Shown: piece after piece, positions 1,137 through 48,912 of the stretch
Position numbering within the stretch: position 1 is the first letter of the stretch
Layout of the letters: each line of letters starts with the position of its first letter
Source: Aquanectria penicillioides
Lineage: Eukaryota > Ascomycota > Sordariomycetes > Hypocreales > Nectriaceae
NCBI GenBank assembly: GCA_003415625.1
Contig: PYIU01000001.1
Coordinates: forward strand, 6,264,210-6,328,209
Reading direction: 5' to 3'
Length of the DNA stretch: 64,000 bases
The notes under the pieces: generated by a model
Seen by the model: the letters and a program-made list of their open reading frames with translations, nothing else
What the model was told of the DNA's origin: nothing
Databases searched by the model: none
Position numbers and translations under genes: made by a program

Positions 1137-1485
1137 CTTGACGAATTGAGGCCCGCGATACTGGAAACTGGGCACGTCGTGATGAGCTTGAAGAGCCAAT
1201 TTTTTGGTCCCGAGTCGAGCTGGGCCAACGGATTATCCCGGCGGTCCGACCACACCAAGATTCGTCCATTTTTGGAAGCAGTTGGCTGCTGACCTAATCA
1301 AGCAGGGATCTGACCAGAATAAGTGGGACCGCAAATCGAGACGCGACTCAATTAAACAGACGCGTCGCGGGCCACGGGATGTCTCATACCCTCCTTGTCC
1401 GTGGGGAGAAACCAAATCAACAAGTTACGAAATCTTTCACAACCAGGAAAATCGTGTAGATTCTCACGGTTTTCCATTTTCGAAA
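1137..1485. promoter_or_regulatory. Divergent NAM9/CTF18 intergenic region
   Basis: About 350 bp separates the two start codons. The reading frame of CTF18 stays open upstream to about 1204 but contains no earlier ATG, so this stretch is read as shared 5' untranslated and promoter sequence. No TATA box stands out. Confidence 0.5.
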
Positions 1486-4692: not shown

Positions 4693-6484
4693 TTACAACT
4701 TCGACTTGGGTCTCTGGGACGGCACGGCCAGCGGGTCGTACACAGTCGATGACAGGTTATCGGCGTGGTATGCGGAGTGGTTGAACAAGCTGCGGATGTC
4801 GAGCAGGCCGGAGTGCAGCTCATCGATGCGGTTGCAGCCGATGAGGCGCATGTTCATCTCGAGCTCGTCCTTGAGGAGCTGCATGGCGCGCTCAACACCG
4901 GGCTGGCCGTAGGCGCTCATGGCGTAAAGGAAGGGTCGGCCGATACCAACACCACGGGCTCCAAGGCAGAGGGCCTTGAGGATATCGGTTCCACGGCGGA
5001 TACCACCGTCGATGTAAACTTCAATCTTGTCCTGCAGGCCCTGCTCACGCAACACAGGCATGGTCTCGGCAAGGACCTCAATAGCAGAGCGAGAGAACTC
5101 GAGCTGACGACCACCGTGGTTAGAGAGGACGACACCCTCGCATCCGTACTCGATGGCCTTGAGGACATCCTCAACACGCTGGACACCCTTGATGATGATG
5201 GGCATCTTGGTAATGCTCTGGAACCAGGGGATATCATCCCAGCACAGGGCGGGGTCGATGAAGCTGGAGATGGCACGAGCGGCGCCCTGGCTGTTATCCG
5301 TCTCCTCACCCTCCTGGACCTTGCTGCCGGGGTCTGTGAACTTGGATCGCATGTCCTTCTCACGACGACCCAGCTGAGGAGCATCGACGGTGATGAACAG
5401 ACCCTTGCAGCCACGTTTCTCGGCGTGCTGGACAATCTTGCGGGCGATTTCGCGGTCCTTGTTTACGTAGAGCTGAAGCCACTGGACCTGGTCGCCGGCT
5501 TTAGCATCAACAATTTCATCGAATGAGCAAGAAGCAAGAGTGGGAATCATCTGGATAACATCGTGCTTGCCCGAGGCTCGTGTGAGGACGACCTCGCCCT
5601 CATGATGGCCGAGCTTGCCGAGAGCAGTAGCGGTAACATAGACGGGGATTGAGGTCTTGGTGCCGAGCATGGTGGTAGAGATGTCGACATTTTCGACGTT
5701 GACGAGGACCTTGGGGCGGAACCAGATGCGGTGGAAAGCGCCGTGGTTCTCTCGGAGAGTCTATATTATGCTGGTCAGCACTTGCGTGAATGGGGATATG
5801 CGCCCAAATTATTGTTCAGAAACGAGGCCTCATACAATCTCGTCATCGGCGGCACTTGAGTAGTATCCCCAAGCGCCCTTCTTCATAACACGACGGGCCA
5901 CAGCCTCAAAATCGAGTAGGTTATAGCATTGCGACAGCAGCGGCTTTTGGGCGACACGCTCTAAGCGTTCAACCTCATCGGGATCCTCCTCCTTGACCTC
6001 CTGCTCGACAGTGTCCATGTCAACGGGGCCGAGGTGCTTGGAGGCATCGAGGTACTTGTCCAGGGTGTCGGGGGGGTGAATAGGCTCGTACTCTTCGGTG
6101 GCGTCCTTGCCCTGCATGTAATTGTGAGATGGGATGCGACAGACATGAGAAGCTAAGCAGCGGGTAATGACGTACGGCATATCTGAGAATGATTTTTTGG
6201 CCTCCGGGATGCTCTGTTGCGCGAGAGTCAGCTTGCTTTTGCTGCGGCAGGCTTGCTTGGCCACATGGCAAAGAGAGTTGAGAATAAGAATAAGGTCAGG
6301 AACAGCAGCCAAACGAACCTGGCAGGAATTCTGTTACGTCGTATGCCTTGCCCTACGCGCGAGAGTCAGTCTCAATTGAGGGGTTGCGCATAGTCGAAAA
6401 AAGAAGGAAAGTCCTTACGTGAACAATGACCCAGCACGACTTGGCATTGTTGTGCTCGGCGACCTCTGTGCCCTTCAGCACCAT
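4693..6484 (-). CDS. Cytochrome b5 / FMN-dependent 2-hydroxyacid (L-lactate) dehydrogenase, b2-type, with C-terminal SKL
   Basis: Flavocytochrome b2-type enzymes oxidise L-lactate or related 2-hydroxyacids with FMN and pass electrons to a fused b5 heme domain. Five exons: 6484-6419, 6352-6319, 6213-6176, 6111-5836 and 5760-4693, giving about 493 aa. The b5 domain starts MVLKGTEVAEHNNAKSCWVI. Its heme ligands are His35 in EHPGG and His58 in YEPIHP. After a linker comes the FMN barrel: YYSSAADDEI, VYVTATALGKLGHHEGE, LFITVDAPQLGRREKD, the catalytic-base region VVLSNHGGRQLEF, and IDGGIRRGTD. Yeast Cyb2 has a mitochondrial presequence. Here the protein begins directly with the b5 domain and ends PKSKL, a canonical type 1 peroxisomal targeting signal. 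The substrate cannot be fixed from sequence; lactate, glycolate and mandelate are all possible for the family. Confidence 0.9.
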
Positions 6485-7983: not shown

Positions 7984-10900
7984 TTATTTCCATGCGTTCA
8001 GCCCAGCCCACGGGTCGTGCTGCTGTGGCTGTGCGCTCTGTGGATGCGCGCTCGTAGGATCATACTCTTGGTTGCCGTAGTGGATTGTCTGTTGCGGTCC
8101 TAGAGGAGGGGGCCCGGGGGGAGGCGGTGGCGGCACGAAGCCCGGAGGCATGTAACCCCCCTGCGGCTGCGGCTGCGGGCTTCCAAATGAGCCAAAGGAT
8201 TGGTGCTGCTGTCCAAACGTCGTCTGGTTAGGTGGTGGCGACGCCGGGCCTCGCATGGCACTCATGCTAAATGTTGTCTGGTTGGGGGGTGGGGAAGTAG
8301 GCCCTTGGGTCCGGCCGTACTGGCTTGGGTTGTACGTCGGCTGCGCAAATGTATTAATGGGAGGCGGGCTGAAGGACTGCGTCGTTTGTTGACCTGGGAA
8401 GCTTTGGTACGCCTGCTGCTGCACCGCCTGCTGTTGGGGAGGAGACGAAGTAGGAACCTGATACTGTCCCTGGTAGTTCGAGTATCGAGATGCCTGGCCA
8501 GATTGGAATTGGGGCGGCGCTGGTGCAGGTCGGTTTGTTGGCTGCGGCGATGACTTGGTAGGTTCCATGGACATCCTGTCCATGAGCTCCCGCAATCGTT
8601 CTCGTTCCATCTCGGCCTGCGAGTTTTTGTTCGAAGACCGCTCCTGTTCAATCTGATTCAGAAGCTGGGCTCCCTCTGCCCTGCGGTTGTTGACGAATGA
8701 TTCGACATTCTTCTCCAGGCTTTCTACTGTCTCTCGCATTTCGGCGTACCAGTTCTTGGCACTGTGTAGTCCGGCTTCCAGGTCCAGGAACTCCTGGTAC
8801 GCGCGCTTATACCGGTTGACAACCGTCGATCGGTGCCGCTGAACGTTCTCATACTTGCTCTGCTCCGACTGGACCCTCTTGTCTTGCAAAAGCTTATTAA
8901 ACGCCAGTGTCAGCTCCTTCATCAGACTCGACTGCTTGTGGTTCGCTTGTAGAAGTCGGTTCTGGTGGGGCCGGAACTTTTCAAGCTCCTGCTCAAACAG
9001 CTGCGTCTCATAGTTGGATATCGACTTCTTGTTAAGGATCAGGATTTGAGAAATGTCATCGTTGTGAGCCTACCGGTTATTAGCACAGGCGACCTCAGGG
9101 CGGCTAACGGACAAACAGACCTTTTCTTTCAAGTCTTTGAGCACTTGGTTCCGCTCTCGCTTGATCAGACTGAGCTTCTTCAGGATGTCCTCCACCTTGT
9201 TGATCTGCTCCACCACACTAGGTCCTTCTTCGAAGTCGGTATCCAACAGGTTTGGCTCGATGCCTGCTGGGCTGGCAGCGTTGCTGCCCTTGGCTCGGGC
9301 TTGAGCCACAGCTCTGTGAAACAGTTGATCTACTTCGCCCGTCTGAGCCGCTCGCCGCATCTCGTCAAAGTCCAGCTCATTTAAGCGCAACTTGCTCGCT
9401 AGCTGATTATCACTCCTCGAAGCCTCGTCAAGTGCCTCGCGGTAGTTACGAATATCGCCTCGCAAAGTCGTCGTCAATCTCGAGCTTGGCTGCTGCGTCC
9501 ATTCACTTTCGTACTTGGATCGCATCTTCTCACACACGCCTTCCTCCATATCTAGCGACTTTGTGCCCTTTTCCAACATGGAAAGAATGGACTCCCTCTC
9601 AGTCCTCAGGGAATCGAAGATGGTAACAGGGTTCTCGTGATCAGAGACGTCCTCGCACCATTGCCGGAAATCCTCGTCAGGGAGAATGTCCTGGTCAAAG
9701 CCTCCTTTCAACACCTGAAGCGCTCCTGGGAGTCGGAGATAGTCCAGGCTTGCTTCCATCTCGCCATTGGCAGTGTCCACCCTCTCTGTCTCCGCTCTTA
9801 CTAGCTTGGCCTTCTCCTCGTCGTACAAACTCGCCGACTCCGTCACGGCAAAGGGGACAATCTTGCCGAAAAGGTCGGGGCCAGTGATTCGCTGGATATC
9901 TTGGCCAGCATAGAGCTCGCTAACTGGAATAGGCTTCGCGGCCGGGAGTTTACCAACGGGCTCCAGGCTCGCCTCAGCAGGAACGTTTTGATGGTAGATG
10001 TAATCATTGTCTTTTAGAAGTTCCTGCAATTTGTTCTGGACAGTGGAGTGGTGTCGCTTGGCGATTTCTTGGAGGAGTCCGCTACATTCAGCATTGAGGT
10101 TGGAGCTTGGGGGCATTGAGCTAGGGAAGTTTCGAGCTACCCGATCAGCCTCCTTCGCATGAGCTTCAGCGACCTGAAGTCGGCCAACCGCAATACCATG
10201 TTGATTAGCATCGTCATCTGCGAGAGCTTGGTAGTATTGCGCCATGGAGTTCAGGACATTGGTTTTGATCTGGCACGTGTTAGCTCAGCCTGCAACTTGA
10301 CAAGGTGCGGGTAGTTCATAGCCCCTCGAAAATATTTGGGGGCGAGAGGCTTACCTGGACAAACATCAACCAAACTTTCTCGAAAATGGCCTTGTTGACG
10401 TTCTCCTGAACCCCTTCCAGAGCCTGGCCGTAAAGATAGGCGGCTTGCGCAGCGAGCTTCGCGAGCAGTCCAATCTTCTTCTTGTCTGCGATTTGCTTTT
10501 CAAGAAACACTTCCTGGGCTTGGGCAAGCATGATGTTAATGAGAGCCTTGACGGTTTCCCTGCTTAGGTCGGACGAGGGAGCATGAAGGAAATTCTCATT
10601 GATGTAAGTAAACATGCCCGCAGAGGCCTGAAATGAGTGGTAAGCGGTTTTGAGAGCAGATTCCTCAGCGCGGTCTTGGGCGGCGGCATGGCAAGAGAGA
10701 ATGGCAGAGATGTTGAAGATGATGGAGGCTTTTTCGAAGGCAAGGGAATATTGGGCAGTGGACTTGTGGGTGAAGGCATCAAACCTGCACATGGTAACAC
10801 AAAAGATTAGTATTACGAATCTTCGTCTCTGGAAATCTCACATCATCGTGAGGAGGTGATGACAGATGACGTACCATGTAAATGATATTTTGATGTGTTG

Positions 10901-15305: not shown

Positions 15306-18119
15306 TTAAGCAAAGACACTTTCGGTGAATGCGTTGACCTGCAGGCCCTTCTCCGCCATCTCGGCATCCCTCAAGAAATCTAGCGGGAACCAAACTAGGT
15401 GACCCTTGATCTGGTTCAGCTTATGACGGGCATCCTCTGGGGGCATCAACTGGTCATAGATGTGACCGGGCTTGAGGCCCCGCGGGGGTAGGTATCGGTC
15501 GTAATCCTCAAAGGTTTTGACTGCGAGGCAGCGTTAGTGTACATCCCAATTGTGTTATTCCGCTCTCAATTCTAGATTGCACTTACTGTAGTTGTTGGGG
15601 TCAGAGTGGAACAAATGGGTAAAGATTTTTGTGTTGATGTCGGCCTGGCCAGTCCACTTCTTCCAGAGATCGTCGGACAGCGGGTCCTCCACAAATTTCC
15701 AGCTGGAATCCCGATCGTAGACGTTGTTTTCAGGGTTCACCGATGGCGGCTGAGCGTTGATATCGTCCTTGGCATCGAGACTCTGGGGGCTCAAAAGGCC
15801 CATGTGCTCTCGCCACAGGTACCGACGCAAGGTGGTAGCGTGATATCCAGCCTGGAACGGCTTGCCGTCCATTATGGAATCGACCATGCGTGTATCCTCC
15901 ATAACGATGCTGAGCTCACTGTCATGATCTCCTTGTTGGCTGCGATCGTTGAGGTTGCTCGAACCGCACACCACGAAGCGATCGTCCACAATCAACAATT
16001 TGGAGTGCACGTAGAGTTCCTCCTGAATCCAGTTCGTAATCTCGGCCTCGGGGTCTTCCTCATACCAAACCTCATCAGTCAATGGACCGGAACCGACCAT
16101 TGCATGGTGCGCCACGGAGGAAGATGTGATGACCTTCTCCTTGGGCATGTTTTCCTCAAAGATCTTCCGGGCCTCCATAGTCTTCTTGATAGACTCATCC
16201 ATCTCCTCCTTCTTCATCTCTCCTCGCATATGCTGATCTCCCTCATGATCTTGAGGATCATATGTGCCGTGAATACCCTCGGCCATGATTTCTTCGGCCT
16301 CAGCACGCTGGACCTGTTGGTAGCTGATACCCGTCTTCTTCTCTGTCTCTGTAATTGCGGGGGTCTTGTTCAAGCGGTCATAAGATCGCAGATTGAAGAA
16401 GAAGAGATATTTGGTAGGGTCTACCCCTTGGGCCCGACACTGTCCAAAGATGGAGTGCTCGCCTCTGCAGATGCTCTTGTACTGGTAGTCCATAATGGCC
16501 CTCGTTCCTGTAGCCGCGTTCTCTCTCAAGTCTCCAGCAAAACCAGGAATGGCGGGGATGATGACAATAACGCGGAACCTCCTGCCCTCCTTGTCAGCGC
16601 GAACGATAGCATCGACAATAGCTCGGCCGATGGTGTTTCGAATAGGGGCCTGCTGGTCACCGGTGGCGGTGATAAAGAATTGATTCTCAATGTAGACGAA
16701 GTGTTGCGCGTTGCGAATTAGCTCGATATAGGCGTTCTGGATCGAATGGTCTTTCAGAATACCACTAGACCAGTCTGCACTCGATCGGACAATCTGAGCT
16801 TTGACAGTTCCCCGGTTGTCGAGATTCTTCGTGGCCAGGGCCGTCAGGGGTGCTTCACATATTCTCCCACTGGGTGCTTAGGGCGCTGAACGCCAACGAG
16901 ATCCTCATCTTCTCCTTCACGGCCTTCTAAGATGATCCAATCGAATCGTTCATCGCGCTTATATTTGTCGCGCTTGATGAAGTTCCATCGCAAGACAAAG
17001 TGCTCGGCAATGTCGTACACGCTGGGCCCAATTACAGCCATGGCTACATCGTGCCAGGGCATACGACCGTATTCAGCCTTACTCAATTCGTTGTCTTGCC
17101 ACTGAGACACTTGCTGAAAATCCATGATGCGATTGTTGTTAAAATCCTGGCCAGGCCAGATTTCCTCCTGGACGCCTTCAGGGTGAACGTCAGAAAGGGG
17201 GTGCTGGTGGTTGTCCCACCGTCCAAAACAGAGGTCGAGGCCACCAATGAAGGCCATGGAATAGTCGATGACAATGAATTTTTCATGGTGCGCCCAATAC
17301 ACAGTCACGTCAGCAAGGTTTTCGAAAGGATTATGATCTGGGTGACGGATAACTCGAATGTTTCCATAGCCGGGGCTTCCCTTCGGACACAAGCCGTTGA
17401 GAGCATGCTTCGTGTGTGCCGAATTGCAGGTCAAGGCCTGCTCAACCTCCTTGTACACGCTAACGAAGATCTTGACACCCTCCTCAGCCTTCTTCTTAAG
17501 GAGTTTGTCCAATCTATACTCCTGGGTATAATACGGCGGACGTCTCAAAAAGAGTTCGGGCGAGAGCCACCAATCTGCAATGTAGATGGATTCCTTGGCC
17601 TGCTCGAGTGCCACGGAGACGGCCCAGAAATAGTCGCGGCCATCCACGTACCACTTCACCAAGTTACCTTCGCGTTCTGGGAAGTATGATTGAAATCGAT
17701 TCGCTTCGGCGGCCTTTGTGCGTTTTGCATCGCATTTCTGCTCGTGCTCCTCGTCGTGTCGGTGGTTCGTGTTGAACTGGGTGGGTTTGGTTAGTCTCCT
17801 GATTTTTGGAGGGTTCAATCAACGAAGCGGTCGCCAAATGGCTGGGGAAACCCCCCACGTTATAGAATAGGGACAATTAAGAGGAGACTTGCAGGGCGGT
17901 TTCCTTACAATGTTTGCGACTTTGCCGAGTTTGTGCCTTGGGGAGAGTTAGTACATGAGTGGCCGTTTGTAGAGCACAATTCACGACTGACTTTTGGTGG
18001 ATCAAGCTAATCTTGGCCTCTTCAAGCTTGGTGTCTTGAAGTTTGTCTTTCAGGTCACCAAGCATGCTACCAAAGCCGAACCTCTTGCTACTGCCGCCCT
18101 CTTTCTTTTCGTTCGTCAT
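15306..18119 (-). CDS. Phospholipase D (two HKD motifs), with a 1-base frameshift
   Basis: This enzyme hydrolyses phosphatidylcholine-type lipids to phosphatidic acid. Exons are 18119-17992, 17936-17909 (only 28 nt), 17776-15587 and 15520-15306; with one base restored they give about 853 aa. Exon 2 reads HKLGKVANI after a split Lys codon. The first HKD motif is HHEKFIVID (about residues 215-223). The second is HSKLLIVDD (about residue 643), followed by SSNLNDRS. IENQFFI and GFAGDL lie between them. The C-terminus ends VNAFTESVFA. The frame breaks at the G run 16847-16850: the minus strand reads CAC CCC TGA, and one more C gives HPLTALATKNLDNRG and rejoins the downstream frame. There are no obvious PX or PH domains, unlike yeast Spo14. 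It resembles the shorter PldA-type enzymes of filamentous fungi. Confidence 0.88.
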
Positions 18120-24741: not shown

Positions 24742-25881
24742 TTACTTTCCTGACCAAGATTTGAAAGAGAGATACTTGGGCCGTTTTAGCGTAGGCCGTT
24801 TCATCTTCATGGATCTCATGGATTCTCGGTCTGTCTCGCAGTCGCGGCCTAACCAACCTGCGATAGACTGAACAGCTTCTTGATATTCTAGCAATACACT
24901 TGGCTTTAGTGTCATTGGCGGTGGATTATCCCATGCATGCTTCTCGCCCTCTACCACACGCAAGGTGAGCGTCTTCCCGGCTTCCGCGAGGCGCTTGGCA
25001 AATTGCTTGCCTTCGGAGAGAAGCATGTCATACTCGCAGAGCACGAGATGTATTGGTGGCAACCTCTGCAGAAGCTCATCTGGCATTAATCCCGGCGAGA
25101 GACGTGGGTCTGTCCTCTTCTCACGGTCGATGGAGGGGTATATATAAGAGGCATCGATCAGGTCAGTGAGACCCTTGGGCAGTGTGAGGTCGGGACGACA
25201 GCACGTTAGACGCTTTGCTGGGCGAGTAATGGTCCAGTCCAGCATGGGGTAGAAGAGAGCCAAGCCGGCAATGCGAGGTGGACTGATGGGTAGCTTGTAG
25301 CCCCACCGATCCGGATCGTTGAGAATGAGCCAGGTGGAGAGAGCATTGGAGGCACCTGCAGAGAAGCCTGAGAGAACAATACGGTCTGGGTCGATGCCGA
25401 ACTCGGCAGCACGATGCTTGATCTGGAGCACGGCGTCGACGCAGTCCTCAATGGGGGTGGGAAACGGATGGGTCGGAGCCAGACGGTAGTTGACGGTGAA
25501 GACGACAGCATCGAGGGAGGCAAGAATGGAACCGGCCCATCGCGCGTTGTCAGTGCCCTGGCCTAGGATCCAACCTCCACCATGGAAGACGATGACAGCA
25601 GGGCGAGCGCCGATGGAGAGCCGCGGAGGGTTCCATACCTCGGCCTTGATCTTGGCACGACCCTCGAAGCCGGGAGCAAGGGTGGCATCGAGAGAGATTT
25701 CGCGGGATGGCTCCGGGGCAGGAGGGTCAGTGCGGTTAGCGATGCTGAAGCCCAAGCTGGCTGCAGAGCGTATGGCCTGGGCCCGGGCGTTGAGGTACCA
25801 GCGGGAGCTGGCCTCGAGGGGGTTGATGTATCCCTCGGGCTCCGGGGTAGTAGGGTTAGAGGTGGAGGGGGTGGTCTCCAT
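24742..25881 (-). CDS. Alpha/beta hydrolase (HSL-type), candidate ergosteryl-aspartate hydrolase
   Basis: Single exon, 379 aa from the ATG at 25881 (METTPSTSNP). The frame is open further upstream but has no earlier ATG. Hormone-sensitive-lipase family features are complete: oxyanion loop HGGGW at residues 100-104, nucleophile elbow GFSAG with Ser174, acid Asp285 in CEYDMLLSEGK, and base His315 in EKHAWD. NYRLAPTHPFPTPIED is also typical. The N-terminal segment carries LGFSIANR and the C-terminus is Lys/Arg-rich (MKMKRPTLKRPK). It lies divergent from the AspRS-DUF2156 gene, 2.7 kb away. Fungal sterol aspartylation is reported to be reversed by a dedicated hydrolase, ErdH. Identifying this gene with ErdH is inference from context plus enzyme class; a general esterase or lipase is the alternative. 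Confidence 0.88.
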   Translation of the reverse strand: METTPSTSNPTTPEPEGYINPLEASSRWYLNARAQAIRSAASLGFSIANRTDPPAPEPSREISLDATLAPGFEGRAKIKAEVWNPPRLSIGARPAVIVFHGGGWILGQGTDNARWAGSILASLDAVVFTVNYRLAPTHPFPTPIEDCVDAVLQIKHRAAEFGIDPDRIVLSGFSAGASNALSTWLILNDPDRWGYKLPISPPRIAGLALFYPMLDWTITRPAKRLTCCRPDLTLPKGLTDLIDASYIYPSIDREKRTDPRLSPGLMPDELLQRLPPIHLVLCEYDMLLSEGKQFAKRLAEAGKTLTLRVVEGEKHAWDNPPPMTLKPSVLLEYQEAVQSIAGWLGRDCETDRESMRSMKMKRPTLKRPKYLSFKSWSGK

Positions 25882-26067
25882 GGCGGAGGAGGGTGAGCCC
25901 AACGGCGGAAGCGTCCGGCCGGCCAACAGAGTAGGAGTGCCCGGCAGGGAGGCGACGAGGATAGCGGCAAGAGGGAAAGGTGAGGGAAGACGTGAGGGAC
26001 GGGAGTCAAGAGACACAGTCAGAGACGGACGCAGTCGTCAAACACGTGGTTTAGCCTCTACGGAACC

Positions 26068-26082
26068 GGGGGGGGGGGGGGG
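26068..26082. repeat. G15 homopolymer
   Basis: Fifteen consecutive G bases upstream of the hydrolase start codon. The exact length is unreliable, given homopolymer errors elsewhere in the window. Confidence 0.8.
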
Positions 26083-28233
26083 ATGGTGTAGTGGTGGGAA
26101 GCCTGGACTAGGACTGGGGTGGATGGTGTCAAGTCAGGCGGGCGGGATGGAAAGGGCCAGATTGGACGATGGGAGGAGCTGGGAGGCCTGGTGCTGTTGG
26201 TTCTGTTGGTTTGGACGTCGAGATGAGGCGACAGATAGAGACGCAGCGGCAGAGAGGGAGGGTTGGGGTAGGGCTGGCTGCGACGAGGCCGTGAACAGGG
26301 CTGCGAAATGGATGCACCGAGCTGCACCGCACAGAGTCCGCGGAAAGCTTGAATGACAACGAGGGTGACGAGGATCCTGATTCTGATGGCCGATGGCTGA
26401 TAGTGTGTTCACCGTACGACGCGCGAGGAGCCAACGCACCCGCATTAAGAGTGTCGCCCCTCTAGCATCACAGGCTCCCGAGACACGGCCAAACGCTGCG
26501 GGGGCCAGCGGCTATGGAGCAAGACCTCGCCGCGCCTAGGCGAGCGTCGCCGAGCTTGCAGACTGGGCTGGCCTGGGGTCTGAATGGGGGACCTGGACTG
26601 GGACCTGGCTGACTTAACGGAGCTGGGACACAGTGGCTTGCCCGTTAATTGAGAGCGATGATGTCGTTTGAGCAATGGAACTGGGCAGAAGCGCTCTTAC
26701 AAAGCGTCAGCCCTGGTTCTCCTGGGGCCTCTGTCATGCTTGGACGTGCTGACTGATGACGTCTGGCGGGCTTTCCGTCGACTCAGCCAATAGCGTGTTA
26801 TGTGGCGCCCAGATCACTCTTTTCCTGGTTCTAGTTGAAGCTGGAACCCCCAAAAAATTCATGGCCAAAAAAGAAAAAATGGATAGTGGGGCACTCTTCC
26901 CCCCCAAACCCGACACATCCGATCAAGCTTCGATGGTTGACGTCACATTTGGAAGCAACAACAATGTCGCATCACTTTTGGAGCTGTCCCTTGTCGTGCA
27001 TTGTCTCACAGCGGTGCAAAGAGGTGTTTCCTGTGCGTTCATTATCGTTCGACCACTAATCCTGTTGTTGCTCGGTAATGCTTTCGCTCTGCAGTGAGCT
27101 GTCTCGGAGATCGATTCTCGAGATGTTGGTTGGCCTTGTAGAGTTCTTTCGTGGTTCCAGGTCCGGCGCCGACAGCACCGAAATCTCCACTCAAGTGTAA
27201 GTACCTACCACTCGGCCCCGTCCAGGGCCCCGGCAGCCCGCCGAGGTCAGAACGTTAAAGGGTACCTTTTCATGGTAACTCACTGTGGGTACCTAGGTAC
27301 CTATTCAACGTGGTGCATACCAGCACATGTTTCGCAATGGGCAAATACTGGTGGTAGGTTTCTTTTGCCGCCATGCGTCTCGACGGACTTCAGCTTGATG
27401 CCGAGACGGGTGACGGCACAGGCCCGGCCATCGAGTGGCCCAAAGCAGCGTTGCAGCGCATCTCCTTCAAGTTCGTAGTGGTCACCTTTTGGTTCCCAGT
27501 GCCGTCTGTCCCACCGCCTTGGTTCTGCAGGTCCCACTTTCATGAGTCCCATTCAAGAGTCCCATCTATCTCCAGCTCAAAGTCCGGAAACCCAATCGAA
27601 AAATCCGGCCCATTTCAGTCACGCGTACATGGGTCGTTGAGGCAAGGGTACTGGGTATCAGGGTGCTGTACTCTGTACAATGCAATGCGAGTGAAACACG
27701 TAATGTGCACCAATGCGGTCCGGTCCAGGAGTGAGGGCTGGCAGCACCAAGACGGACATAGTAGAGCTACATCGATGCATCACGTACCGACCTAGCCTAG
27801 CCCTACGTCGCAGGCCCGGAGGGGCGTGTGTGCAATCCCGTCACACCGGAGATAATGACGCACCATTCGTCAAGTGGCCGGCCACGCCGCTCCAACTTTC
27901 GGTGCGGTGCGGAATTGTCAGCAAAACCGGCGTCCCGCGCGCGGCTCTGACCTTAAACTCGAATGCTGACTTGACTGGAGGGGATAACTCGGCACGCGGA
28001 CCATCCTGGGTGGTGGTGGAGCGGCCCCCATCTAAGTCAACGTGCTGGACTTTTTGCACCTCGCCCAATGCATCGCGAAATGCCGAGTCAAGGCTCCATC
28101 CCACCAACACGCGCTCCACGGCTTTTGAGTCCGGGGCCGAGAAGGGTGCCGTGAGGTAAGCATCCCTAGTACGGAATTTTTTTTGCTCATTCTTCGTGAA
28201 TCCCTCGCTCGCCGTCGGGCCCCGAGCTCTCCC

Positions 28234-28243
28234 GTATATAAGG
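28234..28243 (+). promoter_or_regulatory. TATA-like element upstream of AspRS-DUF2156
   Basis: GTATATAAGG lies about 310 bp before the ATG at 28554. It is the clearest TATA-type sequence in the intergenic region, and its orientation fits the plus-strand gene. Transcription start is not shown. Confidence 0.4.
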
Positions 28244-28553
28244 CTCGTTGCCATACGCCACTGGATCAGGTTTTTATTTAACCCTGTTGTTTCACTCTGT
28301 TGATCATCGAGCCTCACTGCCTTGCTTTTGTGCAAGTAACTCCAAGTGGCTCCTGGATAGCTGACAGTTCAGTCCGCCCCGAACCTGGCCAAACAGAGAA
28401 AGACCAAAACCATATAGGGACTGGACTCGCCCGCCTTGGTGTCACACCCGTCCCTGATTTACGACTTAGATAACTCAGCCCTCGGCCGCCATCGTCACCA
28501 CTCGCCCAAGGTGTGGTTCATATCTTCCCTGGACCCACACACCAAAAAGAGAG

Positions 28554-31424
28554 ATGACGGCTTCAACGGGGATAATCACCCCTGTAACCTCAGCTTTTGG
28601 CGGTGCTCCATTGTCACCCAAGCATCGGGTTAAAGACTCGGTCTCGTCCTTGCCTTCGTCCCCAATTTCGACAACTCCTTCCACATTTTCCAACATGACT
28701 GCCCACTCGAGTACCACCACCGTCGCTGGGGCTGGGGATGTCCAGAAGGACGCCGCCAGCGATTCTGGAGTGGCGACTTCTCCCACTAGCAACATCACCT
28801 ACAGCTCTGAATCCTTCAAGCCCGTTCGCTCCTCTTCCGTGCGATGTTCCACAAACAGGCTCCGCGACAGCGCCATCGAAATCAAGTCCGCTCGATCTAG
28901 CATGGACGGCTTCAGCCGGGAGGCCTTCAACAAAGAGGCTTTTACCAAGGAAGCTTTCACCAAGGATGGCCACCGAAGTGCCATGGCTATGGCCATGGCC
29001 ATCTCCGGAGGAGGTTCTGGTAGTGGAACCCCCAACAGCCGCGCCTCGATTGAGAGCGGCCGCACCACAAACAGCGCCGACTGGCCTACACACCCCTACG
29101 AGCTCAACGCCATTTCTCAGCTCGACACTCTTCCCATCGGCACTGAAGTCACCTTCCGCGCTCGCATTGAGACCCAGCGCCCTCTTTCTAAGGCCCTCGA
29201 CTTCCTTCTCCTGCGTGATCAGACCCACTCCGTCCAGGGCGTCCTCGGCCGCGATGCCGGTAATACCGAATTCATTCGCTGGGTCCGCAAATTGACCCCG
29301 GAGTCGCTTGTACAAGTGTCAGGAACACTGAAGGAGCCCCCGGAGCCCATTCGATCGGCCACTCAGACTTGCGTTGAGGTCGACATCGAGTCTATTTTCC
29401 TCGTCAATGCCGCCCACAACCTAGCTTTCACCAACTACAAGCCCCCTGAGACTCTCCGCAACCGCATGTCGTCGCGAATCCTCGACCTTCGACATCCCGC
29501 CAACCAGGCCCTCTTCCGAGTTCGTTCTCTTGTCGCCCGAACATTCCGCAACACCCTCGAAGACCGCGGTTTTGTCGAGATCAATACCCCCAAGCTCCAG
29601 CCTGCCGCCACCGAGAGTGGTGCTGCTGTCTTCGGCGTCAATTACTTTGATCGCAAGGCGTTCCTTGCCCAGAGCCCTCAGCTTGCTAAGCAAATGGCTA
29701 TTTCCGCCGATTTTGGCCGTGTCTTTGAGGTCGGCCCAGTCTTCCGTGCTGAAAACTCCAACACTCATCGTCACTTGACTGAGTACACCGGTCTCGATAT
29801 TGAAATGGCGATTGAGTATGATTATCATGAGGTCATTGAAGTTCTTGACGAGTTCCTGAAGTCCGTGTTCAAGGCCGTCTACAGCATGCCCGAGGTTGAG
29901 GTCATTCGCAAGCGATGGCCCAGCGCAGAGTTCAAGTGGCTCGAACAGACTCCCATCATCCCCTTCACCGAGGGTCTGCAAATGCTTCGTGATGATGGAC
30001 GTGACGTTGAAGAAGAGGATCTCTCAACGCCCGATGAGATCCGCCTTGGCGAACTTGTCAAACAGAAGTACGGCACTGACTACTACGTCTTGGACAAGTT
30101 CCCCGCCAATGCTCGCCCTTTCTACACTGCCAAGGATCCCGAAGATCCCAAGTGGACTCGATCCTTTGATATTTTCATTCGTGGCCAGGAGATTTGCTCC
30201 GGTGGTCAGCGTATCCACAACGCTGACGAGCTCCGAACCAACATGGCCATTGCTGGCATGACTGAGGATGGCATGGAGGACTATCTTACTGGTTTCGACC
30301 TCGGTGCTCCCCCACACGCCGGTGCAGGTCTCGGCCTCGAGCGCATTGTTGCGTGGATGCTTGAGCTTGGCGATGTTCGATATGCGTCGCTGTTCCACCG
30401 TGACCCCAAATCGCTGCCCGCCAAGGCGCCCGGCCTGCCCCACCCCGAGGCCGACACCACCAAGCCCCACTCCGCCGAAGCCCCGCCGGCACTTGAGAAG
30501 CTCATTGCCAACTACGGAGACGCCTCCAACACATCCTGGCTGGATGACCGATTCCACATCTGGCGCCACTCCACTGGTGCAGCTATTGGATGGGTGCCTC
30601 AAGAAAAGTTTGCCATGGTCACTGGCGATCCCCTCTGCGACCAGAGCCAATATCCCGAGGTGATTCGCGATTTCGTCAAGTACCTTGTCTCAGAGCGGCG
30701 CCTGACCCCAGTTTGGATGCTTGTCTCGTTCGATGTGCAAAAGATCCTCGCCCGCGAGCTCCGCTGGCGGACTTTGTCGTGCACGGAGGAGCAGCGCGTC
30801 GACACCGATCGCCAGCAGCTCAATGCCGCTAACCAAGCCAACGGCCTCGCTGCGAAGGCGCGGCGCGTCGAGCGCGAGGGTATCAAGATCCACGAGGTCA
30901 AGGCCGATGCCGACTTCATCAGCCGCGCGGACCCTGCCATCGAGGCCTGGAAGGCCAACCGCAAGGGTAAGCAGGTCCATCTCACCGAGGTTCGTCCCTG
31001 GGTCGATCCCGAACACCGTCGCTACTTTGCTGCCGAGAAGGACGGCAAGGTTCTCTCTATGGTGGTCTTGCACCGCCTGGCTCCCCGCCACGGCTGGCAA
31101 GTCAAGTGGGCGCTTGATTTCCCCGGCGCCACCAACGGTGCCATTGAGGTGCTCATTGGACACGCTCTGGCTTGCGTCTCTGGAAAGGTGACGTTCGGTG
31201 CTGGTGTTTCTGAGAAGCTTACCCCTGGTGAACATATGGGTGGTATCCGTGCTCGATTCCTCGCAGCTACCTATAAGTCGATTGTCGACAGCCTCGGCCT
31301 GCGCCGCAAGGCTAGCTTCCGTTCCAAGTTTGGCGCTTTGGGCGAGGAGGTCTACATCTGCTACCCCAAGCATGGTGTCGGTCTGCGTGACATGCAGCAG
31401 ATCATCAAGTTCTTCCAGGACTAA
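28554..31424 (+). CDS. erdS: Aspartyl-tRNA synthetase-DUF2156 fusion (ergosteryl-3beta-O-L-aspartate synthase, ErdS-type)
   Basis: An intronless 956-aa fusion. Residues 1-180 are a Ser/Thr-rich extension with a short repeat (REAFNKEAFTKEAFTK, residues 122-137) and AMAMAMA. Residues about 185-290 form the OB-fold anticodon-binding domain (IGTEVTFRARIET). Residues about 300-625 are the class II AspRS core: FLAQSPQLAKQM, motif 2 FRAENSNTHRHLTEYTGLDIEM (397-418), FIRGQEICSGGQRIH, motif 3 GAGLGLERIVAWML, and LFHRDPKSLP. Residues about 645-956 are a DUF2156 / lysylphosphatidylglycerol-synthase C-type transferase domain (FHIWRHSTGAAIGWVPQEKFAMVTGDPL; WALDFPGATNGAIEVLIG). In ErdS the synthetase domain makes Asp-tRNA(Asp) and DUF2156 transfers Asp to the 3beta-hydroxyl of ergosterol. 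Catalytic synthetase motifs look intact. It is not a lysyl-tRNA synthetase: the core motifs are AspRS-like. A second in-frame ATG at residue 48 is a possible alternative start. Confidence 0.94.
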   Translation: MTASTGIITPVTSAFGGAPLSPKHRVKDSVSSLPSSPISTTPSTFSNMTAHSSTTTVAGAGDVQKDAASDSGVATSPTSNITYSSESFKPVRSSSVRCSTNRLRDSAIEIKSARSSMDGFSREAFNKEAFTKEAFTKDGHRSAMAMAMAISGGGSGSGTPNSRASIESGRTTNSADWPTHPYELNAISQLDTLPIGTEVTFRARIETQRPLSKALDFLLLRDQTHSVQGVLGRDAGNTEFIRWVRKLTPESLVQVSGTLKEPPEPIRSATQTCVEVDIESIFLVNAAHNLAFTNYKPPETLRNRMSSRILDLRHPANQALFRVRSLVARTFRNTLEDRGFVEINTPKLQPAATESGAAVFGVNYFDRKAFLAQSPQLAKQMAISADFGRVFEVGPVFRAENSNTHRHLTEYTGLDIEMAIEYDYHEVIEVLDEFLKSVFKAVYSMPEVEVIRKRWPSAEFKWLEQTPIIPFTEGLQMLRDDGRDVEEEDLSTPDEIRLGELVKQKYGTDYYVLDKFPANARPFYTAKDPEDPKWTRSFDIFIRGQEICSGGQRIHNADELRTNMAIAGMTEDGMEDYLTGFDLGAPPHAGAGLGLERIVAWMLELGDVRYASLFHRDPKSLPAKAPGLPHPEADTTKPHSAEAPPALEKLIANYGDASNTSWLDDRFHIWRHSTGAAIGWVPQEKFAMVTGDPLCDQSQYPEVIRDFVKYLVSERRLTPVWMLVSFDVQKILARELRWRTLSCTEEQRVDTDRQQLNAANQANGLAAKARRVEREGIKIHEVKADADFISRADPAIEAWKANRKGKQVHLTEVRPWVDPEHRRYFAAEKDGKVLSMVVLHRLAPRHGWQVKWALDFPGATNGAIEVLIGHALACVSGKVTFGAGVSEKLTPGEHMGGIRARFLAATYKSIVDSLGLRRKASFRSKFGALGEEVYICYPKHGVGLRDMQQIIKFFQD

Positions 31425-36027: not shown

Positions 36028-39000
36028 TTAATCAAACACATCCGTAGCGAAGCGCTCGTTTCGGTGCTTGTCAAACCACTCCCTCGCCTGCTCCTGGCTG
36101 ACCTCCTCACCCTTGTTCTCCTTATTCCACTCCTGCGCGAGGCGCACGCAGACGTCCTCGATGGCCCTGCCGACCTCGCGGCTGCCGCAGATGTACACCT
36201 TGGCGCCCTGGTCCCACAGGGGAAGACGTCGGCGCGGTCGTGGTACAGGCGGTCCTGGACGTACTTGCAGCCCTGCGACTTGTCCGTGGCGCGCGAGTAT
36301 GCCCGGCGCACCTCGACGGCGCTGAGCTTCTCCCAGCGGGCGAAGTCGTCCTTGTAGAGGTCGTCGACCTCCGGGTCGCGGCAGCCGTAGAAGATCAGGG
36401 CCGGGGCCAAGTTGCGGCCGGCGGCGAGCATGGCGGCGCGCTCCTGGGCGAAGCCGCGGAAGGGGGCGAGGCCGCTGCCGGCCGCGATGCAGATGATGGG
36501 CGTGTTCTCGGCGTCGCGGGGCAGATGGAAGGCGGCGGTGGATGGCCGGACCGTGACGTGGAGCTTCTCGCCGGGGGAGAGCTCGGAGAGGAAGTTGGTT
36601 GCGACGCCGACGTGGCGGCCCTGGCCGGAGAGCGAAGGGGCGTCCAGAAGGGAGTAGGTGAGGGTCAGCTTGGATGGGTCGGCAAGAGGAGATGATGAGA
36701 TGGAGCTGTAAGAGTTAGCAGCTTGTCCTGTCTATATCAAAGATGATATAACTCACTATTGTCGGACTCTCATCGGAGGCAACATGGCTAGGTAGGAGCC
36801 AATGGGGAGCGCAACCGAGGTGAATCGTTCCAGGAGCTCCAGAACGGAGACCTTCTTGGCAACGATGCTATCCTGGTACTCGTCTCCAGAGAGCTTCTCG
36901 AGTTGCTCGATAGTTTTCTTATCTTCAGTGGCCTCGGCCAGTGCCAGGATGTTCTATGTTCAGTTAGTCGGAGTGTTCTTTTCCTGTTAGTTTTGAGGAT
37001 TGAACTAAGCGCTTACCCTCTTGGTGGCAGGCTGAGAGAGTTCGACATATGCGCTCAAGACATCCCAGGCGGAGATTGGGGTGTTGGTGGGCAGCGACGT
37101 CGGTCGGTCGGATTGGATCTTCAGGGCGGCGTCCCAGACCAGCTCAAAGCGACGGAAGACACGAGAAACGGTGGCCCTGGGGTTCATCGGCAAAACGGCG
37201 AGGTAGTCTCCGGCCTTGTAAGTCATACCTGTGGGGAGCTGGATCTCAATGTGGTTCTTAGGGGGGCCAGAGGCGGTCAGAGTCTTGGTCGAGACAACCA
37301 AGGCCTCTTCGACGTCCTGGCGGAGAGTTGCCTTTCGAGGGGTAGACACCTCGACAGTGATGCCGACCTGGACACCGGTGGTGTCGGTGGTGTCACTTGT
37401 ACCATACTTCTCCTTGAGAGCGGGCCACAGGGTCTCGTCCTCCCAAGCCTCAAAGTCGCTAAACATGTCGCTGCTGGCCGCGTCGGCGCTGCCCATGCCG
37501 ACCAGGCGAGTGCCGCCCAGCTTCTCAAGCGTGGCGTCGACGAGCTTAGGAACGCGGTGGAAGGTCTGAATCCAGTCGTGGTGACCGCAGGCGAAGACGG
37601 CATAGTCGACCTTATCCATCTCGCTACCCGTCAGGTTCTCGATCCAGTTCACAAAGTGAGTTGCGTTCGATGGCGGCTGGCCCTCGTATGAGGCAGTGAT
37701 GATAACAACGGGGCGATCTTGGGGCAGGTTCTGCTTCGCGTCGTCGAGAGGGCTGATGTTAGTGGCAGAGAAGCCATGGGTGGGAGCATCAGAAGCCAAT
37801 CGCTGAGCCAAGGCTTCGCAGGTGCCACTGTTCGATCCGTAGTAAATAGCCAGGGGTTTTCCGGGAGCGGCGTTTGAAGGCTCATCAGTCGTGTGCTTCT
37901 TAGCGGCCGCCTTTGTATGGGTGGCCTTTCCGGCAAGTCGCTGCTCCAACTCGGTGGCGGTCATTCCATGGCGGAGACTTGCTCGCATGTCAAAATGATC
38001 GGGCTTGAGGGTGAGGGTCTCCTTGATCTGAAGTTGGTAGTTGGGGTCGTTCATGGTGAAGTTGAAGTTTTGGAAGAGCATGGCCATGGCCAGAACAGCC
38101 TCCTGCCAGGCGAACGGCCGTCCAATACATGCTCGCTTGCCATTTCCAAAGGGCTTCCAGCAGTTGGGGAATTCCTGGTTGAGGCGAGCAAAGTTGTCGT
38201 CAGTCATGCGCTCAGGCTTGAATTCGTTCGCGTCGTCTCCGTAGACTACGGGGTCCAGGTGAGCCCTGCTGACGAGGGCGCTGACGACCTCGCCCTTTTG
38301 AACCAGATACTTGCCGCCAAGTACAGTATCCTGGAGCGCTTCTACACCGAAGGCGCCGATGGTGGAGCGGAGGCGCAAGGCCTCACGGAGCACAGCGTTG
38401 ATGTAGGGGAACTTGTTAAGGTGGTCCACCGTGATGGCATCGCCGCCCAAGACTTGGTCAACTTCTTCTTGGACCTTTTGGTACTCGGCCGGGTGCTTGA
38501 GCAAAAGGTAAAAAGCAAATGAGAGCAAGCCGGAAGTGGTCTCATGTCCAGCGATTAGGAAGGTGATCAGCTGGTTCGTAATGTTGTCGTCAGAAAGCTT
38601 CTCGCCAGTCTGAGGATCAACACCCTCAAGCATAGCCGCGAGCAAGTCCTTTCTGTCGCTAGGGTTCTGCTTTCTTGACTCGACAACCTCGTCGGCTGTG
38701 TTCTTCATAATGCCAATGTCAGCGGCAAACTTTTCGTTGGCGGCCCGGAACAAGAAGCTGGGTGCAATGGCGGGGCGTCGTTGCTTGTTGCCACACTCAA
38801 CAAGGAAATCGCCCATGGCCTGGACAAATGGATGCATATCCTCACGGTAAAAGGAGTTGAAGCGGAAGTCCATGGCACACAGGGCCAGTGTGTCGAGGGC
38901 TAGGCGAGTGAAGTCGTCGGCGACATGAATCGGGGTGTGGGGGCCATGGCGAGCAAACTTCATGCAAAGCTGAGTGGCGATGTCGTGCATATCAGAGAAC

Positions 39001-39402
39001 ATGCCGCGAATTGGGAGAGGGCCGAAAGCTGGGATGAGAATTCGGTGAGCCTTGCCCCAATTGGGCTCGTCATTGTATGCCTAAGAAAGGAAGAATTAGA
39101 TGTTGCATGCTGCGGGGTGACACAGTGGAACTTACAGTGAAAAGACCATCATGGACACCTTCTCTGACAACGCCAAGCACAGTCTTCAGTGTCTTTTGAA
39201 AGCGCTTCTCGTCACAAACTTCATTGACAAGGGCGTTGGATGAGACCATGATTACTGACTTGGTGCCGAACCGGACTCTGTAGATGGAGCCATATGTGTC
39301 GGCGAGTCGCAAGAGGTCGTTCATGGGGCTGGTGGTGAACTCGCCAATGTGGCCGAGGAGGGGAAGTCCTCGAGGCTCGGGAATTGGGACGAGATCTGCC
39401 AT
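36028..39402 (-). CDS. Self-sufficient cytochrome P450-reductase fusion (CYP505 / P450foxy type), with a 1-base frameshift
   Basis: CYP505 enzymes hydroxylate fatty acids near the omega end using a fused NADPH reductase. Exons 39402-39136, 39080-37017, 36953-36757 and 36705-36028 give about 1068 aa once one base is restored. Seen in order: proline-rich start MADLVPIPEPRGLPLLGHIG, I-helix FLIAGHETTSG, ExxR in VLREALRLR, heme-ligand loop FGNGKRACIGRPFAWQEA, flavodoxin FMN loop YYGSNSGTCEALAQRL, FAD contact RQYSISSSPL, and NADPH-binding CIAAGSGLAPFRGF. The C-terminus is RFATDVFD. There is no membrane anchor, as in P450foxy and bacterial BM3. The frame breaks at the G run 36219-36222: minus strand TTC CCC TGT should read TTC CCC CTG TGG to give VFPLWDQGAKVYICGS. 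Confidence 0.93.
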
Positions 39403-44182: not shown

Positions 44183-45628
44183 ATGGTGTCCGCCAAGTTG
44201 CTGTCGCTGTCTCTGCTGAGCTACCTGTCGTCGGCCGTCTACGCCAAGACGTGCATCGTTCCCGCGACTAACGGTACCGGCTCAGACGCCGCCGCCATCC
44301 AGAAGGTCTTTGCCGAATGCGCCAAGGACTCGACCATCTTGTTCCAGAAGGGCTACGAGTACAATGTCTTTGAGCCCATCACCGCGACCAACCTGTCCAA
44401 CGTCATCATCTCCGTGCAGGGAAACCTTAACCTGCCTCAGAACATCACCGCCGTCCAGAAGATTGTCAAGGATGGCGGAGGTTCCGTTTACTGGTTCGAA
44501 TTGAAGGGAACCAATGTCCAGTACGTCGGTACTAACGACGTAAGATTTCTCCTCTCACAGCCTCAATTGTTCATATATACTAATTCGACTAGATCACCAC
44601 GGGATGGATCCGATCCTATGGCCAGCAGTGGTGGGATGCTAACCCAGCCGGATCCACCGGTCTTGCCAACCGCCCTCACCTGATGCGCTTCCAGGTCACC
44701 AATGGCGCTCTCAAGCACTTCAAGTCTTGGAAACCCATTGGCTGGAACGTTGCTGTCAAGGGTTCCAACATTGCCATCTCCCACGGCATTGTTGATGCTG
44801 TTTCCGAGACCGGCAGCTTCCCCTTCAACACTGACGGCTTTGGAATTGCCGCAACCAACGTCACCGTCACCGACTGCGTCATCTACAATGGTGACGATGC
44901 CATTGCCATCACCGATGGTGCCCACAACGTTTTGGTCCAGCGCAGCACTGTCGGATACCAAACCCACGGTCTCAGCATTGGATCTCTTGGTTCCGATTAC
45001 ACCAAGTATGTCAACGTCACTGACATCAAGTTCAACGACATCACCTTTGCTGGTGGCTTGTACGCTTCCCGACTCAAGTCGTGGACCGGTGGACAGGTGC
45101 GCCTATATTTCATCCTCTACTTGATAGATATACTAACAGCGCTCCAGGGTCTTGTCAAGAACGTCGAGTGGAGCAACATCCGTCTCTTCAACGTAACCTT
45201 CCCAATCTTCATCACCCAGACTTACTGGGACCAGAACAAGGCCACCAGCGATCGACCTACCAACCAATCCGTTGCCATGGAGAACTTCACCTGGGATAAC
45301 TGGAGGGGTTCCATCAACTCTTACCAGCCAGGAGATGGCTCATGCGCCTCCGATGTGAGCATCAAACTTCTTCCCAAAATATCTGTTCATCTCTAACAAG
45401 AAGCAGCCCTGCTGGTACGATGTCGGTCTTCCCAACCTCAAGCACAACGAGGCCATCATCCTCGAGTGCTACGACGAGAAGTCGTGCCAGAACTTCAAGT
45501 TCAACGACGTTCGAATTTACGCCCAGGATTTGAGCACTCCCACCGTCATCTGCATGAATGCCCAGGCGAGCTTGAACCCTGAGATGGGCATTTCATGCCG
45601 CAACGGAACATATGTGCCTCTTTACTAA
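44183..45628 (+). CDS. Secreted GH28 glycoside hydrolase (polygalacturonase type)
   Basis: GH28 enzymes cleave galacturonic-acid linkages in pectin. Exons 44183-44539, 44593-45096, 45148-45354 and 45407-45628 encode about 429 aa. A signal peptide of about 21 residues ([21 protein letters not shown]) precedes the right-handed beta-helix. Catalytic-region motifs are NTDG at 198-201, DD at 220-221, THGLSIGS with His244, and RLK at 279-281. The usual family motifs are NTD, DD, HG and RIK. Here the DDC seen in many endo-polygalacturonases is DDA, which leans toward an exo-acting or rhamnogalacturonan-type branch. Several N-glycosylation sequons (NGT, NVT, NQS) fit secretion. It is flanked by gene-free DNA rather than other pectinases. 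Confidence 0.9.
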
Positions 45629-46589: not shown

Positions 46590-48912
46590 ATGGACTCGTC
46601 CACGCAGTTCCACAACGCCGTGAGCGGCCAGTATACTATCGCCGCCCCACAGGCCTCCCACGGCGGATCGAACAACTTCTACTTCGCCGGGCACAGCACC
46701 GGCGCCGACACAGCCGGCCTCCTGCACCAAGCCCGACCGTCTCGCGAACCCTTCTCCACCGTTCCTTTTCCTCCGGACCCTCGCTTCGTTGATCGTCCCG
46801 GGATTCTTAGTTGGATTTCCGAGAGGTGTGGCCAACCAGGTGCTCGTGCCGCGTTGGTTGGTCTAGGAGGCATTGGGTATGTAGGAACGCGTCATCCTTG
46901 TGCTTCACTCCTCTTACGGTCAAAGGAAATCTCAGATTGCCATACATTATGCCCACCAGGTTCGAGAACGGTCGCCCAACACATGTGTATTCTGGGTGCA
47001 TGCCAGTACCCAAGCCCGCTTCAAACAAGCCTTCCAGACTATAGCAGACAGACTTGGGCTACCTATGAGAAACGACCCCAATTCCAATATCCTTCGCCTG
47101 GTGTATGATTGGCTGTGTATTGAGGAGAATGGGCGCTGGGAGATGATCCTCGATAATGCCGATGACATCGACGTCTTCTTTTCCGATACCCAAGAACCCC
47201 TGGCCGCATACTTGCCACAGAGCAAAAATGGGTCAATTCTCGTCACGTCCCGCAGCATGAGCGCCGCAGATAGGTTAGTTGGCAATCAGCAAAACGTCTA
47301 TGCAGTACCAGCAATGGATGCTCATCAAGCCACCCAACTACTACGTGAGAAGCTGGACGAACATTATGACGACACTGCAGCCCCCCAGCTGGTAACTTTC
47401 CTTGGCCATATGCCTCTCGCAATCACACACGCAGCCGCTTTCATCAGTCGTCGAGCGCCCAGAATGTCAATACGCAGATACCTCGAGGAGTTCCAGAAGG
47501 GCGATGCACGAAAAGAAAGTCTCTTGGATAGGGAATTCGGCGATCTTCGAAGGGATGAGTCAGCCTCCAATTCAATAGTGAAGACATGGCAGATCACCTT
47601 CGAGCAAATACGTCACGAGAGGCCCTCGGCAAGTGAGCTCCTCACTTTTATGAGCTTCTTCAACCCCTACGGAATCCCGCTTTTTGCCCTACGTGCCTAT
47701 AAGCTTTTCTACAGAGTTGGGGCCGAGGTTGACTTGGATACGGACCTCGAGGATGATCTCGAAGTTCTTCATGAATATTCGTTAGTGTCAGCGACAACAG
47801 AACGCGAGATGTTTGAAATACATGCTCTAGTAAGACTCTGCACTCGAGTTTGGGTCTCGTCCTTTGACGATAAGCTGCAGTGGAAGAGCAGGTTTCTCAG
47901 GGTCATGGCGTACCTGTACCCTTTCGGAAAATTTGAAAACTGGAGAGTTTGTGAGATATTAAATCCGCATGTTGAAGACGTCATGGCGGATAATCCAAGT
48001 TGCGATATGACAGACATGAATCTTTTGGCCACCCTATTTCACAATGCAGCATGGTATCAACACGAGAGAGGTAAGTACAATGATGCTGAGCAGTTGGGTC
48101 GACAATCTATCGCATTACGTGAAAAACTGCATGGGCGGGATCATGTCAATTCGGCTTCCAGCCTTGGTAATCTTGGGCTAGCTCTCCGACAACAAGAAAA
48201 GTATCATGAGGCAGCGCAGATCCATCAAAACACCTATGAGATACACCGGCGGTTTCTCGGCATGAATCACCCTGATACGGTCTCAAGCCTCGATAATCTT
48301 GCAGCATCACTCAAGTTCCTGGGAAAGTATAGTGAAGCAGAGAAGATGCATCGGGCCGCACTAGAGATGTACAAACAGCTACGTGGGCTCTACCACCACG
48401 ATACCGTCTCATGCCTTACCAACCTTGGAATATCCCTGTCGCTGCAAGGAAAGCATCGCGAAGAAGAGCAGATACATCGTAGCGCCCTGGAAATACGCAA
48501 ACTGCTATCGGGGATGACGCACCCGGAGGTAGCCAATTGCCTCAATAACCTTGCGCTGGCCCTCTCTAAACAGGGCAAGTTCGGTGAGGCAGAGCAGATT
48601 CATAAAAGTGCGCTTGGGTTGCATGAGACTTTACTTGGTATGGAGCATCCCTCCACTATATCGAGTGTGGAATCTATTGCAAGGGTTCTCCATAAACAAT
48701 TTCGATTTGCAGAGGCTTCTGTATTTTATGAAAGAGCATATAGAGGTTATATACAAACCAGGGGATCACATCACCCGGGCACGATCCGTTGTTTGTTTAG
48801 ATATAGGATGCTTAGAAGAGACATGGAAAGTGGCAGGGCAAAAGGAGGGCATTCGGCAAGGATAGCAAGTGTCGGTGCGATACCCGATGATGTAAATAGA
48901 CTCAAGGAGTGA
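46590..48912 (+). CDS. NB-ARC/TPR (NLR-like) protein
   Basis: Fungal NLR-like proteins act in non-self recognition and programmed cell death. Exons 46590-46876 and 46926-48912 (49-bp intron, GTATGT...AAAG) give about 757 aa. Splicing restores the P-loop LVGLGGIGKS at residues 89-98. Walker B-like RWEMILDNADD, the RNBS-B-like ILVTSRS and GHMPLAI (GLPLA motif) follow. From about residue 500 there are six TPR_10/12-type 42-residue repeats (for example ALRQQEKYHEAAQIHQ, ASLKFLGKYSEAEKMH, SLSLQGKHREEEQIH, ALSKQGKFGEAEQIH). The N-terminus before the NB-ARC domain is only about 60 residues, Gly/Asn/Ser-rich (GGSNNFYFAGHSTGADTAG), with no effector domain I recognise. Its specificity is unknown. Confidence 0.9.

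Follow-up and report, generated by a model that had tools for sequence, protein, structure and literature searches.

Two uninterrupted genes lying head to head in the genome of Aquanectria penicillioides are very probably the ErdS and ErdH orthologues of this fungus, predicted to make and to cleave ergosteryl-aspartate. At the family level this identification is well supported, because the synthase matches a solved structure, relatives carry the corresponding names, the hydrolase has no close paralogue and falls in a separate clade, and the two genes are linked in related fungi. The genome searched comprises 53.76 Mb in 13 contigs, and the window (the whole stretch of 64,000 nucleotides that was analysed) corresponds to C1:6264210-6328209. 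The synthase and the hydrolase point away from each other, and the locus contains the following features:

28554-31424, + strand, putative ErdS orthologue of 956 aa (Pfam, PDB match, names of relatives)
24742-25881, - strand, putative ErdH orthologue, an HSL-type alpha/beta hydrolase of 379 aa (Pfam, triad, tree, relatives)
25882-28553, no strand, intergenic region of 2,672 bp (2.67 kb) from start codon to start codon

The original prediction had described a divergent gene pair around one intergenic region, and this holds for both the coordinates and the opposite strands of the two open frames. Six of the 11 open frames of at least 80 aa inside the intergenic region were searched together with one overlapping its edge, and none of these gave a Pfam match. 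A shared promoter in the 2,672-bp region was sought by means of repeats and nothing notable was found; the two genes may be co-regulated from this common region. In the whole window neither a tRNA (ARAGORN, bacterial setting) nor an Rfam match was detected.

Several other genes were observed in the window. An open frame at 46885-48912 (+) encodes an NB-ARC and tetratricopeptide repeat protein with an NLR-like architecture, which also matches the FxSxx-COOH system TPR model NF040586 with 314 bits against a cut-off of 300, and at 37005-39080 (-) cytochrome P450, flavodoxin and FAD-binding domains are fused as in the self-sufficient P450 type. At 7984-10284 (-), BRO1 and ALIX V-shaped domains occur in two adjacent open frames that probably make up one Bro1/PalA-like gene, and the phospholipase D active-site motifs found in two open frames at 15555-17818 (-) probably also belong to a single gene. 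Further matches are an AAA ATPase like the replication factor C large subunit at 1192-3678 (+), under the cut-offs of those models, a glycosyl hydrolase family 28 (polygalacturonase-like) match in the open frame at 44593-45396 (+), and an FMN-dependent dehydrogenase at 4693-5760 (-).

The synthase is formed by four parts:

residues about 1-186, variable N-terminus, differing between species
residues 199-281, OB fold (Pfam, under the cut-off)
residues 303-616, class II AspRS core, tRNA-synt_2 PF00152 (Pfam E 3.7e-74)
residues 658-936, C-terminal LPG_synthase_C/DUF2156 transferase, PF09924 (Pfam E 2.3e-12, 47 bits with the cut-off at 27.5)

An AspRS core of 956 aa fused to a DUF2156 domain had been predicted; the fusion is confirmed by Pfam, whereas 956 aa is the size of the entire fusion, whose core spans about 303-616. 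The best NCBIfam model for the synthetase part, over its cut-off, is the nondiscriminating aspartate--tRNA(Asn) ligase, which belongs to the AspRS group. Residues 187-956 (770 residues, through the last one) align to the full-length fusion of PDB 9w9f with an E value of 6.3e-239, the identity being 207/321 in the AspRS core, 146/309 in the DUF2156 part and 32/104 in the OB fold. The chains of 9w9e, 9w9f and 9w9g were deposited under the name 'Aspartate--tRNA ligase, cytoplasmic', and from their architecture we infer that they are ErdS. The active-site stretches of the AspRS core match those of 9w9f, and the class II motifs are intact and kept in the 37 aligned sequences (the window protein and 36 relatives drawn from the best 120 of 2708), in all of which the DUF2156 part was also found. 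A by-eye comparison of 9w9g with 9w9f reveals nine differing positions, at all of which the window synthase carries the residue of 9w9f; six of the nine fall in what we take to be the motif 2 loop, and the changes in 9w9g look designed.

Both PF00152 and PF09924 are present in all of the best 120 of 2708 relatives of the synthase. Among these 120, P0162 and P0230 are labelled ergosteryl-3beta-O-L-aspartate synthase, most printed names are aspartate--tRNA ligase or hypothetical, and the nearest named relative by identity is Mariannaea sp. PMI_226 (91% over 82%), of a genus of Nectriaceae. The window synthase begins with MTASTG, as do its close relatives P0121, P0123, P0124 and P0126. The full-length match to a solved fusion and the two relatives carrying the synthase name strongly support the earlier equation of the AspRS-DUF2156 protein with ErdS. 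Passages of a review (PMC9437257) describe ErdS as an AspRS core with a C-terminal DUF2156 fusion, and we found no difference of kind from it, the first ~186 residues being those that vary by species. LysX/MprF, as treated in the same passages, resemble the window synthase in their aminoacyl-tRNA-dependent lipid aminoacylation and in their transferase family, but they are bacterial and use another amino acid and another lipid (PMC9437257).

The hydrolase start codon lies at 25881, within an open frame that extends to 26037 and matches Abhydrolase_3 with a Pfam E value of 1.5e-45. Counting from this start, the catalytic residues are Ser174 (GFSAGA), Asp285 (CEYDM) and His315 (GEKHAW), with HGGG at 100-103; by analogy with HSL enzymes and from their position we take the three residues to be the triad. 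Each of them is conserved in 69/69 sequences of an alignment of the window protein with 68 relatives drawn from the best 120 of 686, so that the complete HSL-type hydrolase of the original prediction was right in both coordinates and residues. The model of the hydrolase fits many HSL esterases equally well and hence indicates no substrate. ErdH is the ergosteryl-3beta-O-L-aspartate hydrolase reportedly described by Yakobov et al. 2020, and the window protein is likewise a serine hydrolase with a complete triad. Within the best 120 of 686 relatives, P0017, which is 72% identical to it, is named 'putative ergosteryl-3beta-O-L-aspartate hydrolase' by a JGI source, and the name ErdH for the window hydrolase depends on the label of this one source. 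Lipase, arylacetamide deacetylase, acetyl esterase and similar generic or hypothetical labels make up the remaining printed names in that set, the named relatives being headed by Dactylonectria and Neonectria. Among the matches listed in a literature search the string ErdH occurred only within other words (Erdheim-Chester) or was absent.

The hydrolase scores 879 bits against itself and 434-766 bits against the best 120 of 686 relatives, and its top other match in the same genome reaches 85 bits; the own-genome search gave 28 other matches, none of them a close paralogue. In the tree the 69 sequences fall on one side and 11 own-genome paralogues on the other, with a branch support of 98/87, the paralogue branches being long and of the kind for which the tree program warns that joins may be false.

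As a proxy for linkage in relatives, the longest contigs of the hydrolase relatives were compared with those of the synthase relatives for identical size in bases. Among the hydrolase relatives (best 120 of 686), 24 had a contig identical in size to that of a synthase relative (best 120 of 2708), the smallest such size being the 10,171 bases common to P0050 and P0164. As a control, size differences of between 1 and 5 bases were seen in just 2 pairs, or about 0.2 for each offset. The other 96/120 are without a size match to any listed synthase relative and are uninformative. In six assemblies with a common locus-tag prefix the two tags are consecutive (4/6), two apart (1/6) or far apart (1/6), the latter in Cordyceps sp. 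RAO-2017, with two short contigs. Because of the 24/120 size matches and the consecutive tags in four of the six assemblies, we conclude that the pair is linked in many Hypocreales. Together with the name of P0017, the lack of a close paralogue and the separate clade, this linkage supports at the family level the predicted role of the hydrolase as the ErdH partner.

We propose the following substrates and activities on the basis of these homologies. The AspRS half of ErdS would load tRNA-Asp with aspartate, the DUF2156 half would transfer the aspartate to the 3beta-OH of ergosterol, and the hydrolase would cleave the aspartyl ester via its Ser-Asp-His triad, giving back ergosterol.

One alternative takes the 956-aa protein as a plain translational AspRS with an inactive appendage, as the annotation of many of the best 120 of 2708 relatives as aspartate--tRNA ligase would allow. 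We consider it highly improbable, since the DUF2156 part is kept throughout the 37 aligned sequences and the genome has a separate AspRS gene on contig C8, without DUF2156 and with at least two exons. Two open frames of this gene, searched singly, gave AspRS models as their best match, the second reaching the end of the model, and the window synthase is thus distinct from it, as an ErdS should be. The arrangement parallels that of A. fumigatus, which has both erdS, AFUA_1G02570 (PMC11619415), and a separate AspRS elsewhere, Dps1, AFUA_2G02590 (PMC4551469). A weaker synthetase match of 27% identity was observed on contig C13. Keeping the synthase as ErdS, the neighbour may instead be a general HSL esterase or a steryl ester hydrolase that is merely adjacent. 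Its Abhydrolase_3 family and ordinary HSL fold would suit this, as would the printed names of the best 120 of 686 relatives, generic or hypothetical except one; nevertheless it seems improbable in view of the recurrent linkage in other Hypocreales, the ergosteryl-aspartate hydrolase label given by one source and the clade apart from the 11 own-genome paralogues.

A possible broader role of the hydrolase involves the second of the two DUF2156 matches in the genome, the fusion to a synthetase being found only in the window copy:

L001:1237-2541, outside the window, stand-alone DUF2156 protein of 434 aa (matched part C7:6672272-6673147)

PF09924 is the sole Pfam match in its 434 aa, with no synthetase domain; all those of its 58 relatives with a printed species name are fungal, and the name ErgS is absent among the 58. 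We regard this protein as a candidate ErgS, because passages of PMC10449517 describe A. fumigatus ErgS as an ergosterol-glycine synthase relying on a separate glycyl-tRNA synthetase. Given this second protein, and the transfer of glycine onto ergosterol by the A. fumigatus enzyme in those same passages (PMC10449517), the hydrolase might not be restricted to a single amino acid on ergosterol, and would then serve the synthase and the candidate ErgS alike. Such a role is compatible with the ErdH reading but rather unlikely, for the hydrolase is linked to the Asp synthase, whereas the stand-alone protein lies on a different contig.

Returning to the hydrolase as ErdH, a basic motif R220-P-x-K-R224 was found in which R220, K223 and R224, together with D243, are conserved in 69/69 sequences and P221 in 64/69. 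Among the 11 paralogues R220 and D243 are each present in 1/11 and R224 in 0/11; the specificity residues were derived by setting the hydrolase against these 11, out of 28 other matches in the genome, in an alignment that is poor around 187-254, and K223 failed the filter applied. Of the HSL esterases used for comparison (EstE1 2c7b, EST2 1qz3), EST2 offers no counterpart in the family profile for residues of about 187-254, where R220, K223, R224 and D243 lie, but the alignment from a single-sequence search ran through this region in one piece. As a specificity motif R220-P-x-K-R224 may serve as a lead only. We tentatively suggest, as a possibility that we hold doubtful, that the pair forms a tightly linked writer/eraser module whose head-to-head layout would set the level of ergosteryl-aspartate, and in which the motif would read the aspartyl carboxylate and thereby make the hydrolase selective in a way not shared by other HSL esterases. 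The linkage and the clade-conserved residues of the hydrolase would offer a direct route to testing substrate recognition.

The pathway is already published, and the pair in the window is an ordinary instance of it, common in related fungi, and neither new nor a new kind of system. The present study adds one more species to those known for this tRNA-dependent lipid modification, which was described in eukaryotes only recently, as well as evidence of a linkage between synthase and hydrolase in many Hypocreales.
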